Positions 1 through 18,731 of a DNA stretch of 18,751 nucleotides are shown piece after piece. The position numbers were made by a program, and so were the translations under genes. The notes under the pieces were generated by a model. The model did not search any database and was not told the origin of the DNA. It saw only the letters and a list, made by a program, of their open reading frames with translations. The DNA is from a bacterium (GTDB lineage: Bacteria; Spirochaetota; UBA4802; UBA5550). Location: contig JAAENB010000940.1 of NCBI GenBank assembly GCA_024224995.1, forward strand, positions 1-18,751, written 5' to 3'. Positions within the stretch are counted from its first letter, which is position 1; every line of letters starts with the position of its first letter.

Positions 1-12
1 CGAGCTGCATCT

Positions 13-106
13 GGCCTGGAAGTAGTATGGGCTCTTTGGGTTGTGAGGACTGTTTGAGCGGAGCGAGTTCCGGAGCAATCCAAAGAGCCCATACTACTTC
101 CAGGCC
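13..106 (+). repeat. Long hairpin element with conserved loop (copy 1)
   Basis: A perfect 27-bp inverted repeat (13-39 against 80-106) encloses about 40 nt. On the + strand the stem extends further through G40-U79, U41-A78, U42-A77, G43-C76 and U44-G75, leaving a loop of about 30 nt. The loop-side sequence begins GGGTTGTGAGG and contains TTGAGCGGAGCGAGTT. Almost the same loop lies inside a different stem at 16202-16287 on the minus strand. The element sits directly upstream of the Cache/CheD-like gene. It has no T-run, so it is not an ordinary intrinsic terminator. It is most likely a dispersed palindromic repeat or a structured RNA; its function is unknown. Confidence 0.8.
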
Positions 107-148
107 CGCGCACAAGCAAAATTTAGTTTCTTGAGAGAGGATTAAATA

Positions 149-3528: not shown

Positions 3529-3549
3529 TCGGTGGGCCCGAGGGCCTGG

Positions 3550-3563
3550 TGATCGGTGATCGG
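3550..3563 (+). repeat. Heptanucleotide tandem repeat (TGATCGG x2)
   Basis: Two perfect copies of TGATCGG lie between the convergent ends of the 151-aa gene and the histidine kinase gene. The same 14-nt pair recurs at 10830-10843, in both cases preceded by G and followed closely by an AAGAA tract. This links the site to the larger heptamer patch at 10830-10916. No terminator is visible in this gap. Confidence 0.7.
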
Positions 3564-3585
3564 TTAAGAAGGGGAAGCAACTGTC

Positions 3586-9230: not shown

Positions 9231-10832
9231 ATGACTGGTATTAAAAACAAACGAACTTATATGCGAATTTGCATTTTTTCTCTAATCTTTTTTATCGCAG
9301 CGATTCTTTCTTTTTCCATATCATGCAAAAAGGACGATGGCGGACAAACGGATGTCCTGGAAGATACCATATCTCCCGATGACACTTTAACAGTGGTCTA
9401 TTTTTCCGAAGATCCCCCGGCCATTAGCCCGGTTCACGCGTTTGATCCCGATTCATATTCGGTATTAAATTGTATTTTCGATACCCTGGTATATCTCGAT
9501 TATGACGGGAACATCAAGCCGAGACTGGCTACCCGGTGGAAACTGCAAAACCCCACTACAATGAGAATGTGGCTCCGCAAAGGAGTCAAGTTCCATAACG
9601 GCGATCCCTTTGACGCCAAATCAGTAAAATATACCTTCGATAAACAGCTCGACCCCAGGACGAAATCTCCAACAGGCGCGGTTCTCAACAGTGTCAAAGA
9701 AGTAAAAATTATTGATGATTTTACGATTGATATTGTCACTCATTTTCCCGATGGTATGCTGCTCTATCGTTTTACCATGTTCAGCAGTATTATCCCTGAC
9801 GGATTTATTGAAAAAAACGGAAAAAACAAACTGAATGAACACCCAATAGGTACGGGCCCGTATAAATTTGTTTCCTGGAATAAGGGAAAATCCATCCGCA
9901 TGGAAAAAAACAGTGAATACTGGCTGGCTGGTGAGCCCAAAATGGATAAGCTTGTTTTTAAGATTATTCCGGAAAAGGACTGGTTTAAGGCGCTCTTAAA
10001 AGGAAATGTCGATTTTGTTATGCAAATGTCCGGGCGATACGCGTCTAAGATAGAAAAAGATGCCGAGACCAAGCTCATGAAGCGGCTGGTTACTTCATCG
10101 TATTGGATAATTTTGAGCAACAAAGGCGCTTTTGCAAATATCAATGTGCGGAAAGCGCTCAACCTGGCAATAGACCGGCAAAAGCTTATTAAGTTTGGGG
10201 AGTACGGCAATGGTGAAGTAATGGCCTCTCTGGGCAAAAAGGGTGAATTCGGGTATAATAGCAGCCTGAAACCAATAAAGCAGGATATTGCCAAAGCCAA
10301 AGAACTGCTTAAAGACGCTGGTTTTGAAAAAGGGCTAAAAATAAAAGCGCTTGTTTCTGATGTGTCCGCTAAGGTTGCCGATCTTCTTAAAAAAGACTTT
10401 GCTAAAATTGGGGTCACTCTTGAAATCGTGGAGGTTTCGCGGCCGGAATGGGCAAAAAAAATCCCTATTTCAAAAATGACAAAGGGTAAAGTCGATTTCG
10501 ACGGCGACATGATTATCAACCTTGTGGATAATCCCCTGATCAACCTGGGTTTTCACGCCTTTATCTTTCTTCATAGCAAGGGTCCTTTTTCCCTTCAAAA
10601 CAATCCCGACTATGACAAAGAATTGATTGGTGCGGTGGGCACGTCAAATCCCGCTGAACATAAAAAGAAGCTCAAGGAACTGGATGAATATATATACGAC
10701 AATGTCCTGGTTATTCCTACATACCAGAGAGTTTTAACCGTTGCGCTCCGGAAAAATGTTAAACTGGAAAAAATAAATCTCAACGGACATCTCAGTTTTG
10801 ATATGATAACGAGGACGGTTAAGAAGAAGTGA
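9231..10832 (+). CDS. ABC transporter substrate-binding lipoprotein, family 5
   Basis: A 533-aa protein of solute-binding family 5 (SBP_bac_5: peptide, nickel, sugar and other ligands). The ATG at 9231 has GGAGG about 9 nt upstream and gives a clean lipoprotein signal ending SFSISC, with lipidation at Cys32; the in-frame ATG at 9174 would add 19 residues and lacks a ribosome binding site. Family landmarks: YSVLNCIFDTLVYLDYDGNIKPRLATRWK, then LRKGVKFHNGDPFDAKSVKYTFD, GTGPYKF, NINVRKALNLAIDRQKLI and AKELLKDAGF. It should bind ligand in the periplasm, but no permease or ATPase genes are adjacent. The next gene is a membrane-bound PP2C phosphatase, so it may supply a signal rather than, or in addition to, substrate. 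The ligand cannot be read from the sequence. Confidence 0.93.
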   Translation: MTGIKNKRTYMRICIFSLIFFIAAILSFSISCKKDDGGQTDVLEDTISPDDTLTVVYFSEDPPAISPVHAFDPDSYSVLNCIFDTLVYLDYDGNIKPRLATRWKLQNPTTMRMWLRKGVKFHNGDPFDAKSVKYTFDKQLDPRTKSPTGAVLNSVKEVKIIDDFTIDIVTHFPDGMLLYRFTMFSSIIPDGFIEKNGKNKLNEHPIGTGPYKFVSWNKGKSIRMEKNSEYWLAGEPKMDKLVFKIIPEKDWFKALLKGNVDFVMQMSGRYASKIEKDAETKLMKRLVTSSYWIILSNKGAFANINVRKALNLAIDRQKLIKFGEYGNGEVMASLGKKGEFGYNSSLKPIKQDIAKAKELLKDAGFEKGLKIKALVSDVSAKVADLLKKDFAKIGVTLEIVEVSRPEWAKKIPISKMTKGKVDFDGDMIINLVDNPLINLGFHAFIFLHSKGPFSLQNNPDYDKELIGAVGTSNPAEHKKKLKELDEYIYDNVLVIPTYQRVLTVALRKNVKLEKINLNGHLSFDMITRTVKKK

Positions 10833-10916
10833 TCGGTGATCGGAGAAGAAAGGGATCGGGGGTCAGGGGTCAGGGATCGGCAAAAAACCTTGAACCTCGA
10901 ACCTCGAACCTCGAAC
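10830..10916 (+). repeat. Mosaic of heptanucleotide tandem repeats
   Basis: Three different 7-nt repeats are packed into 87 nt. TGATCGG x2 is at 10830-10843, its first TGA being the SBP stop codon. GGGATCG-GGGGTCA-GGGGTCA-GGGATCG runs at 10852-10879. TTGAACC-TCGAACC-TCGAACC-TCGAAC runs at 10890-10916. All share 7-nt periodicity although their units differ. The patch ends 6 nt before the AGGAGG of the phosphatase gene. The TGATCGG pair also occurs at 3550-3563. It resembles the short tandemly repeated repetitive sequences described in cyanobacteria in form, not in sequence. Confidence 0.8.
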
Positions 10917-16157: not shown

Positions 16158-16201
16158 TAAGTGTCAATTGCTAAATAGTTAATGCACCCGGAATGTAAAC
16201 C

Positions 16202-16287
16202 ATGCCTGGCGTAATGCCTCCGCAGAACGTTCGGAACTCGCTTCGCTCAAACAGCCTCACAACCCGCAGAGGCATCACGCCAGGCAT
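16202..16287 (-). repeat. Long hairpin element with conserved loop (copy 2)
   Basis: A 22-bp inverted repeat (16202-16223 against 16266-16287) with two imperfect positions. Read on the minus strand both become G-U wobbles, so an RNA from that strand pairs completely. The minus-strand loop reads GGGTTGTGAGG, CTGTTTGAGCG, AAGCGAGTTCCG, matching the loop of the element at 13-106 except for one inserted base and one A/G change. The stem sequence differs apart from a shared GCCTGG end and CTCT near the loop. The 264-nt gap 16158-16421 holds this element and no other feature I can support. Confidence 0.8.
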
Positions 16288-16421
16288 AGTGTTCATTCCG
16301 AATTGCGTTTTTTGGTATATTAAGACACGCCCCATTCATGTGCCGAACATAAATTTATTCCGGGGGAGCACCTTGAAAGCCTGGAAGACAAAGACGGGTC
16401 GTTTAGTAAGGGTTCGGAAGC

Positions 16422-17151: not shown

Positions 17152-17190
17152 CGCGACCTCAGAGCTCTTATAAAGAGCTCTGAGGTCGCG
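17152..17190. repeat. Perfect 18-bp palindrome
   Basis: 18-nt arms (17152-17169 and 17173-17190) are exact reverse complements around a 3-nt centre (ATA). There is no T-run on either side, so it is not a classical terminator. It sits 4 nt from the 20-bp direct repeats. A 12-mer from each arm, GACCTCAGAGCT, recurs next to the histidine kinase promoter at 5767-5778. Confidence 0.8.
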
Positions 17191-17237
17191 ATCCCCGGAA
17201 AAGCTCTTTCCTGGCGTTAAAACCACTTTTCGCCAAT

Positions 17238-17269
17238 AAAAAAAGGCCGGATAAAATCCGGCCTTTTTT
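17238..17269 (-). terminator. Intrinsic terminator of the Met-rich lipoprotein gene
   Basis: A 9-bp GC-rich stem, AGGCCGGAT/ATCCGGCCT (17244-17252 and 17256-17264), with a 3-nt loop, is flanked by an A-run on the left and a T-run on the right. It therefore works as a terminator in both directions. It lies about 27 nt past the stop codon of the minus-strand lipoprotein gene. Confidence 0.9.
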
Positions 17270-17295
17270 GTTTACTTATTTTAAAATGGTTTTTA

Positions 17296-18648
17296 TTACA
17301 GGGTTCCTGCATCAACCGTGCCCGTAACCTGAGAAAAACCTGTTGGCTCTCCGGTATCGGGGTCCCTGCTTGTTACTGCGTATACTTCAAGTCCCGTCAT
17401 ATCTGAGGTTCCCCAGTAGGCAACTTCTATTTGATCCGCTGATCCGTCATTAAATACATTTACAAATCCCACGACTAACGCTGGATCGGGATCACCAATT
17501 AGAAAATCATCCAGGACGATAATATATCCTAAATCATTAACAGGCAGAGTAAGCCCGCTAACATCAACAGTAGGAGCTCCGGTCATCTCGTGTCCGGTTT
17601 CATAGTCGTCGTACCCGCCGGGAACAGCACCCTCTACAAGATCCCATTCGCCGGTTGAGTCATTATAAACCTGGTATCCCTTTGAAGCACCGGTTCCGTC
17701 GAAATAATCTCTTGACTTTTGAGCTGTTCCATTATAAACAAAAGAAGTTTCAAGAAAACCGCCGTTGTCGTCTGCTTTCCCTTCTATTGTATAGGTATCA
17801 TTATTATTATCTCCGTCAACAAACTTCATGGTTGCTTTTACCTTCACACAGTTATCAGCATTATCAGTCGCGCTGCACTGCATAAGCGTCATGTTAACAG
17901 ATCCGTTTAACTGCTCACCATCAAAGTTTTCCTTAAAATCTTCAACGAATGTTGAAACCTTTTTATCATCATCATAGGTAAAGGTCATGCTTGCGCTATT
18001 GGTCATACCTGGCCCCATTTCCATAGTATGATTCATAGTCATTTTGATCTTGCTCTTTCCGGTCCACTGGATAACTTCTTTGTTATCTTCGACCAAAGTA
18101 TCACAAGTTGCCTGCTGATTCATATCAGAACCGGGATAAAAAATAATTTCGTTATCGTATCCCACTACTTGTTGTGAATCGTATTTCATGGGTGGAGCAG
18201 GCATGCTGGAAGGCATCTGTGATAACATATCATTAACTTCCTGTTCGGACATACCCATACCTGTCATCTGTTCTTTAATAGCGGCTTTAATTGCACCATC
18301 CATAGAAACTGACAAACCACTAACACATTCACCGTTCTTATCTTTTACATTGCTCATAAGCTGATCAATTATAAGCAGGTACATCTGCGCGTTCTGTGAA
18401 TTCATTTTCATCATACCGGTAATCATTTTCATCTGCTGGTACCCCATAGATCCTTCAGCACCCGGACCACCAGCCTTACCACCAGGGCTTGAACTGTTTA
18501 AACTTGACGGAACAGTAACAGAGAGTTTGCTCGGCAGATTTCTGGATAATTGATCACTGCCGCCGCCATTATTGTCGTCGCCGCCGCCGCATGTTACGAC
18601 AAATGCAAAAACAGCTGCAATGAAGAGTGTTAAAATAGTTTTCCTCAT
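17296..18648 (-). CDS. Methionine-rich lipoprotein, function unknown
   Basis: A 450-aa exported lipoprotein. The start is MRKTIL at 18648, 8 nt after GGAGG; an in-frame TTG at 18663 lies inside that ribosome binding site. The signal ends FAFVVTC, with lipidation at Cys20, followed by a flexible GGGDDNNGGGS tether. Residues about 65-160 are strikingly rich in Met (QQMKMITGMMKMNSQNAQM; MTGMGMS; MLSQMPSSMPAPPM). The rest is Asp-, Asn-, Gly- and Thr-rich with beta-type repeats, and includes paired cysteines (around QQATC, LMQCS and DNCVK) that could form disulfides. No catalytic motif is recognised. Possible roles are surface or periplasmic ligand or metal binding. Its own terminator follows, and the upstream region reaches the window edge. 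Confidence 0.85.
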   Translation of the reverse strand: MRKTILTLFIAAVFAFVVTCGGGDDNNGGGSDQLSRNLPSKLSVTVPSSLNSSSPGGKAGGPGAEGSMGYQQMKMITGMMKMNSQNAQMYLLIIDQLMSNVKDKNGECVSGLSVSMDGAIKAAIKEQMTGMGMSEQEVNDMLSQMPSSMPAPPMKYDSQQVVGYDNEIIFYPGSDMNQQATCDTLVEDNKEVIQWTGKSKIKMTMNHTMEMGPGMTNSASMTFTYDDDKKVSTFVEDFKENFDGEQLNGSVNMTLMQCSATDNADNCVKVKATMKFVDGDNNNDTYTIEGKADDNGGFLETSFVYNGTAQKSRDYFDGTGASKGYQVYNDSTGEWDLVEGAVPGGYDDYETGHEMTGAPTVDVSGLTLPVNDLGYIIVLDDFLIGDPDPALVVGFVNVFNDGSADQIEVAYWGTSDMTGLEVYAVTSRDPDTGEPTGFSQVTGTVDAGTL

Positions 18649-18731
18649 AAAAAAAACCTCCAAATTTTTTTTTAAATGTAATAACTTTTTTGACTCTTTC
18701 CTAAATGTTGGGATTTTCTGTTAATCATAAA

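Follow-up and report, generated by a model that had tools for sequence, protein, structure and literature searches.

The window, by which we mean the whole 18,751-nucleotide stretch of spirochaete DNA analyzed here, carries two long hairpins on opposite strands. Hairpin 1 reads on the forward strand; its 5' arm at positions 13 to 43 (31 nt) is 97% complementary to the 3' arm at 76 to 106, with 30 of 31 positions paired and 32 nt left between the arms. Hairpin 2 has its motif strand in the reverse direction, and its 5' arm (16266 to 16300, 35 nt) is 86% complementary to its 3' arm (16189 to 16223), with 42 nt between the arms. The tip of hairpin 1, CTGTTTGAGCGGAGCGAGTT with N = G and core GCGGAGC, occupies positions 50 to 69 of the forward strand, set off from the regular stem by a short irregular stretch; that of hairpin 2, CTGTTTGAGCGAAGCGAGTT with N = A and core GCGAAGC, occupies 16235 to 16254 of the reverse strand. 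At the stem base the arm ends, as read from the sequence, are GGCCTGG/CCAGGCC and CGGAATG/CATTCCG, respectively. On the motif strand, hairpin 1 folds at -71.4 kcal/mol (z -12.7) and hairpin 2 at -75.9 kcal/mol (z -10.5), and for neither was any of 200 dinucleotide shuffles as good. The complementary strands fold too, more weakly, at -59.3 kcal/mol (z -9.6) for hairpin 1 and -51.0 (z -7.0) for hairpin 2.

Several other features of the window are distinct from these two elements. A perfect palindrome of 18 bp, with 3 nt in its loop, lies at 17152 to 17190, and a strong, T-flanked, terminator-like hairpin lies at 17239 to 17269, behind the reverse-strand gene at 17296 to 18663. A 27-nt direct repeat (GTGATCGGTGATCGG...), 89% identical between its copies at 3549 to 3575 and 10829 to 10855, falls at a gene boundary both times. 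The window contains no tRNA, and no Rfam 15 family reaches its gathering score there. Its assignment to Spirochaetota follows the best matches of its GatA protein, at 73% to a 'Spirochaetes bacterium'.

The two hairpins have the tip YTGTTTGAGCGNAGCGAGTT in common, one base change and one insertion apart. Pairwise alignment sets positions 32 to 72 against the reverse of 16232 to 16271; from GGGTTGTGAGG to GAGTTCCG the elements differ by one inserted A and by a single substitution, G or A at the variable base of GCGNAGC, giving the window consensus GGGTTGTGAGG(A)CTGTTTGAGCG(G/A)AGCGAGTTCCG, and two more mismatches lie beside the CTCT. The word TTTGAGCGNAGCGAGTTCCG is present twice in the window at no more than three mismatches, where 0.01 occurrences are expected by chance, and two copies appeared in none of 200 shuffles. 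An earlier note on this DNA had described a common loop with exactly these two differences, which the alignment confirms, and stems that differ yet are each self-complementary, which is borne out by arm search and by folding against shuffles. The 27 and 22 bp that it quoted for those stems, however, were too short, the arms being 31 and 35 nt.

The repeat units are longer than the hairpins, extending over at least 1 to 138 on the forward strand (subfamily A, its 5' end cut by the start of the window) and about 16186 to 16332, with the motif on the reverse strand (subfamily B). These extents come from similarity to L013 (JAAEMX010000089.1), a 3-kb contig found by a strict-pattern genome scan, which holds three copies in 3.0 kb, one A-type and two B-type. 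L013 positions 191 to 320 are 78% identical to window 1 to 138 over 138 nt, the outer ends and tip agreeing and the inner stem differing; for subfamily B, L013 1 to 125 is 86% identical to window 16212 to 16332, and L013 2888 to 3011 is 84% identical to window 16186 to 16301. The two A copies have their outer arm ends, tip and flanks up to window base 138 in common, and between these the stem is rewritten on both arms within one subfamily: inner-stem pairing is 18 of 19 and 14 of 15 for each copy's own arms, versus 7 and 5 when the arms are crossed. The two subfamilies have different outer ends, GGCCTGGAAG... in A and CGGAATG... in B, and the suggestion that a shared GCCTGG end marks common ancestry of the two window stems is not supported. 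L013 is filed under a Lentisphaerae metagenome-assembled genome. Because the motif occurs in none of 48 and none of 386 other Lentisphaerae genomes, and all three matches are confined to this single contig, we reject Lentisphaerae as host and consider the contig probably misbinned.

A scan of viral contigs found CTGTTTGAGCGNAGCGAGTT in 12 of them. By reading, complementary arms adjoin the tip directly, or almost so, in every one of the 12, and arm sequence varies from family to family. Duplex energy exceeded the best of 50 arm shuffles (shuffles of single bases) at 10 of the 11 scorable sites of this 20-mer, the exception being L002; L001, with too little 3' flank, was dropped. A word one base shorter matched at least 80 contigs, unrelated sites included. 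Removal of exact duplicates reduced the 99 matches listed to 42 distinct sites, and among these, again by reading, 21 are armed and 21 armless; by energy, the armed site L057 fails to beat its arm shuffles and the coding-looking L078 beats them. Copies lacking arms, which the earlier note had named as the observation that would count against a family, are therefore absent for the 20-mer, but they make up about half of the sites for the shorter word. Because the shorter word also matches unrelated armless sites, we define the family by tip and arms together, YTGTYTGAGCGNAGCGAGTT between flanking complementary arms, and not by the tip alone; both window elements have this arrangement.

Armless word matches were not counted as members. 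By reading, they comprise sites in phage of putatively streptococcal type, att-like sites of the L027 type, and coding-looking sites (L078, L152, L154-L156 and L158-L161); L168 and L169 have the short word without arms as well. The att-like group (L027, L037, L048, L050, L054, L063 and L073) has a left flank that hardly varies until TGTTTGAGCGAAGCGAGTT ends, followed by right flanks that differ, and looks like a prophage attachment core containing the same word by chance. At one further site, L129 2446-2515, which is the same as L157 357-426, a different palindrome, CCTGCCTGCCGGCATAGGCAGG, interrupts the conserved tip between GAG and TT, a case of one palindromic repeat inserted into the tip of another. 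BLAST searches of the elements of the window and L003 against phages returned no match, and searches against plasmids (window, L012, L006, L003 and L009) returned only three weak 37-base matches (E 0.05), to Sphingobium/Sphingomonas.

Covariation in the stems was scored on three alignments: A1, with 18 members (12 unselected plus six chosen for having arms) and a 14-bp stem; A2, with only the 12 unselected members and 10 inner pairs; and A3, with one member per subfamily, seven sequences in all. The scores were 0.667 for A1 (0.208±0.030 when shuffled), 0.920 for A2 (0.266±0.050) and 1.052 for A3 (0.299), none of them reached by any of 500 shuffles, and slid registers scored at most 0.44. Pairs changed on both sides number 14 of 14, 10 of 10 and 9 of 10, but this count does not stand out from the shuffles, since 52, 22 and 49 in 500 do as well for A1, A2 and A3, respectively. 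The four outermost A1 pairs are mostly unpaired. With arms at every viral match of the 20-mer and covariation above every shuffle, a conserved tip on compensating stems proves to be a property of the family, as had been proposed from the window alone.

A model, R1, built from the 18 members of A1 with the window sequence excluded, recovers both window tips, its E-values being rough. Its best match is 16221 to 16268 on the reverse strand, with the stem scored (31.8 bits, E 1.3e-7). The second, at 25 bits and E 2.4e-5, covers the hairpin 1 tip through loop positions 15 to 34 only, because the regular stem there starts a few bases away. The third, 17237 to 17271 (E 0.012), is the terminator hairpin, so hairpins score by shape in this model.

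All four bases are found at the N of GCGNAGC. The core is present in 26 of the 32 sites listed, most of which were fetched with a pattern containing it; since the searches used exact patterns, much of the tip's constancy follows from the method. Nine sites were found without a core-containing pattern (L090, L091, L126, L135, the L151 copy at 2681, three L005 copies and L164): three keep GCGNAGC, three have lost it through point changes and three have a longer tip. The point-changed tips belong to three near-identical Pasteurellaceae-type copies. The longer tips, of L005/L164 type, are GAGCGAGTCATCGAGCGAG or GAGCGAGTCCGCGAGCGAG; one possible reading of them is a pair of tandem-GA blocks stacked on GC pairs. 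Another tip form, GAAGCGNAGCAAG, keeps the GC-GNA-GC core and changes both flanks. The forms GAGCGNAGCGAG and GAAGCGNAGCAAG are both seen at different sites of one phage contig, as in L151 (2681 and 5473), L010 and L170, and L012 and L167. Tips built from GNA triloops and tandem sheared G.A pairs are compact, and the pattern of variation suggests that the tip is structured, whether in RNA or in DNA. In L005 copy 1 and in L151, the minimum free energy fold pairs the tip region differently.

Outside the spirochaete, a second hairpin lies downstream of the first in 21 of the 24 copies examined, its 5' arm pyrimidine-rich and its 3' arm purine-rich. Two of the three copies for which none was scored, L001 and L007, run off the end of their contigs, and the third, L135, was missed by the automatic search. 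No second hairpin was found at the B copies, and what forms hairpins near the A copies is an A/T run and a terminator-like stem, neither of them this module; the link between the window copies and the wider family therefore rests on tip and arms. In many copies the loop of the second hairpin can pair with the linker at the foot of the first, and linker and loop have changed on both sides: CTTGAT:ATCAAG, CTTGAC:GTCAAG and CTTGAA:TTCAAG. This pseudoknot reaches at least 5 nt in 11 of the 21 second hairpins outside the spirochaete, versus 13% for shuffled loops (23 rows). Pairing with a copy's own loop averages 4.8 nt, versus 3.9 nt with loops of other subfamilies (23 rows), a modest gain, and five rows reach just 3 nt.

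The copy search covered 95 of 161 loci plus the window. Eighteen of the 22 scored sites lie between open reading frames (ORFs) of at least 90 aa as called by a simple ORF finder; three lie under an ORF of 92 to 153 aa, and at L004 an ORF starts inside the tip. Since some frames run open through the element, the ORFs over tips look spurious. Protein clusters P0121-P0137 (17 clusters of the KKCCLSESSSEFISFS type, 10 of the 17 sequences having been looked at) are probably translations of these elements, which would make them spurious hypothetical proteins; a search with the spurious ORF of the spirochaete found no match. Orientation relative to neighboring genes is mixed, with L008, L010, L012 and L005 copy 1 antisense to both neighbors. 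Within 10.9 kb, L005 itself carries four copies. Identity between copies 2 and 3 is 96% over 176 nt, and remnants that resemble a different copy type flank copy 2. One of the 17 database relatives of the spurious ORF of L005 is named Ignavibacteriaceae, by which this locus is classed as Ignavibacteria type. At a site collinear between L005 and L164, stems, tip and pseudoknot are all different and pairing is kept.

Relatives can be compared at a single site in the spacer behind a prophage gene that appears P2-like and gpM-like, judged by reading of its sequence and not by a family search. We take the hosts of these prophages to be Pasteurellaceae, from the uptake-signal words in the flanks. The spacer holds the element in 17 of 39 loci and none in 22, with many near-identical strains among the 39 and absence judged by base and tip words, by which L126, with its mutated tip, would have none. 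Eleven of the 17 have an intact tip, three a mutated tip (L090, L091 and L126), and three have the apical hairpin deleted (L089, L093 and L096), in what may be plain slippage between TTA repeats. The spacer (L088-L126) holds varied inserts: the element, an ACGCAC-rich repeat with a gene-tail duplication (L104 and L105), and others (L095, L107, L112 and L113). Neither a clean empty site nor a target duplication was found among the 39 loci, the flanking gene tails differing as well; because the 22 element-free spacers have different gene tails or other inserts, we regard the site as polymorphic and not as a clean empty one.

Imperfect pairs bear on which strand acts. With arms aligned by a symmetric score in 28 copies, the motif strand shows 33 G.T cells and 11 A.C cells; for the B copies, this alignment extends into flanks beyond the hairpin. 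Counting unique contexts within subfamilies gives 31:10 (p 0.0015 assuming independence, which is not fully true), and an initial set of 22 copies stood at 24:9. Copies of Bacteroidota type, L005 type and spirochaete subfamily B account for most of the excess; among Pasteurellaceae-type copies the ratio is 2:2. Since a process acting on the duplex should give equal numbers of G.T and A.C, the bias favors folding of the motif strand, as RNA or as single-stranded DNA. Because G.T is the milder mismatch in DNA as well, the bias does not distinguish between the two.

Among known systems, the closest resemblance is to REPINs, doublets of REP sequences that form hairpins and are moved by RAYT transposases, as set out in excerpts of their description (PMC3116915). 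According to those excerpts, REPINs, like the elements here, are extragenic, dispersed and non-autonomous, with a predicted long single-strand hairpin, common compensatory changes between the arms, and outer ends conserved within a subfamily. By analogy, our elements may be REPIN-like in their working, but the position of what is conserved across groups is reversed: REPINs, in the same excerpts of PMC3116915, conserve the two end 16-mers and vary the spacer, whereas here the ends are common only within a subfamily, the tip is common across groups and the mid-stem varies. Most non-spirochaete copies also add the second hairpin, unlike REPINs. A Pfam scan of the 15 window ORFs found no transposase family, no RAYT (Y1 transposase) family and no integrase family.

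Integron attC sites are likewise single-strand hairpins with variable stems between conserved parts. They vary the tip and have a GTTRRRY partner box at the stem base; attC thus conserves the stem base and varies the tip, and the elements here do the reverse. The box RYYYAAC is given for the attC stem base in the portion of PMC8632094 on an attC-like motif. Neither RYYYAAC nor GTTRRRY is present at the stem bases of the two window elements. Skipping-rope RNA (RF02924) is a long hairpin with a conserved loop. It has a pseudoknot, according to an extract of PMC7779021. We rejected it as a match: its consensus is unrelated, none of 13 genomes or records scored above 36.7 bits, and the only sub-threshold matches among them were two elsewhere in G001. 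RF02924 gave no match at E <= 10 in 12 viral records, and none for L009 and seven further loci. Rfam 15 matches at gathering score in 12 loci were only a tRNA (L007) and sRNA-Xcc1 (L011), away from the element, and weak matches to microRNA and sRNA models, all far below their gathering cut-offs, were set aside as generic long-hairpin scores. The PBC-28-3 motif, compared by its description in part of PMC8632094, has pyrimidine stretches in its loop and is nearly always oriented with a downstream ahpC-type gene. A search of the CC-licensed PMC literature by tip words and themes found no description of this tip family. We place it with a known kind, the dispersed palindromic repeats, with a real chance that it is more than that.

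Our leading explanation, held tentatively at a little short of an even chance, is a MITE- or REPIN-like fold-back element, dispersed, non-coding and non-autonomous, whose motif strand acts when single-stranded. The motif strand can fold into one long hairpin whose stem sequence is free as long as pairing is kept; the tip is common to a spirochaete and to phage contigs of other groups; and copies are mostly intergenic, point either way, can be closely packed, and vary among relatives at one site. On this explanation, the motif strand would fold when single-stranded, presenting a compact tip of tandem G.A pairs on a GC clamp, usually with a GNA triloop closing it (GA-GC-GNA-GC-GA). A trans-acting protein, most likely a single-strand-handling transposase or nuclease, would grip the tip, and the stem would serve as a spacer with pairing as its sole requirement. 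New stems may arise by exchange or nesting of inner hairpins and by correction of one arm from the other, and movement would be by a transposase. The main rival is a structured non-coding RNA, in which the transcribed motif strand would form the long hairpin and the second, often pseudoknotted one, spread by recombination and phages, and might be a protein-bound sRNA, a stabilizer or a processing signal. We consider it a serious possibility, if on the whole an unlikely one. The G.T excess on the motif strand, the linker and second-hairpin loop changing on both sides, and the window copies lying sense to the flanking genes seen are all in keeping with an RNA, but orientation to genes elsewhere is mixed, to the point of being antisense to both neighbors at four sites, Rfam has no match for the elements of the window and 12 loci, and only about half of the second hairpins make a pseudoknot of 5 nt or more, with modest gain over foreign loops.

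A further rival is self-correction of palindromes. Template switching during replication would copy one arm to the other, keeping stems paired with no selection for pairing, and only the tip would be selected or conserved by descent. The near-perfect stem of hairpin 1 beside a diverged relative fits recent correction of this sort, as do the A copies of the window and L013, which differ over about 15 to 19 inner pairs while each is near-perfectly paired. Such a process, however, predicts equal G.T and A.C, in conflict with the observed ratio (itself tempered by the non-independence of subfamily members and the even Pasteurellaceae-type count), and the pairing of loop to linker is no simple palindrome, yet has partly changed on both sides. 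Self-correction is an improbable account of the family; it probably contributes to the perfection of some stems, without predicting the strand bias. Least probable of all, and very unlikely in our judgment, are intrinsic terminators or ordinary repeats converging on a stable GNA-capped tip. GNA-capped DNA hairpins are unusually stable, which counts for convergence, as does the mostly intergenic position of the elements. Neither window hairpin, however, has a T-run after it on the motif strand, a scan allowing loops of 3 to 8 called no terminator-like site at either element, and the 19 shared specified bases go well beyond GCGNAGC and exceed what a stability motif needs.

The elements could, more ambitiously, belong to an undescribed class of single-strand-acting element, with one recognition tip and one widespread putative handler protein, across Spirochaetota, Bacteroidota-type phages (Ignavibacteria among them) and P2-like prophages. 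Its members would combine freely rewritable stems with a tip of tandem G.A pairs seated on a GC clamp and closed in most cases by a GNA triloop, often adding a second, pseudoknotted hairpin. We think this rather doubtful, and it is weakened because just three of the nine sites from core-free searches keep GCGNAGC. If one kind of protein reads the tip across unrelated bacteria, the family would be a concrete bait for finding it and would separate what such a protein reads, the tip, from what must merely pair, the stem. Annotators also stand to benefit, since translated elements have entered protein databases as short hypothetical proteins. The many stems that have been rewritten along both arms, finally, are a natural record of how long palindromes evolve in bacteria, whether through selection or through copying between arms.
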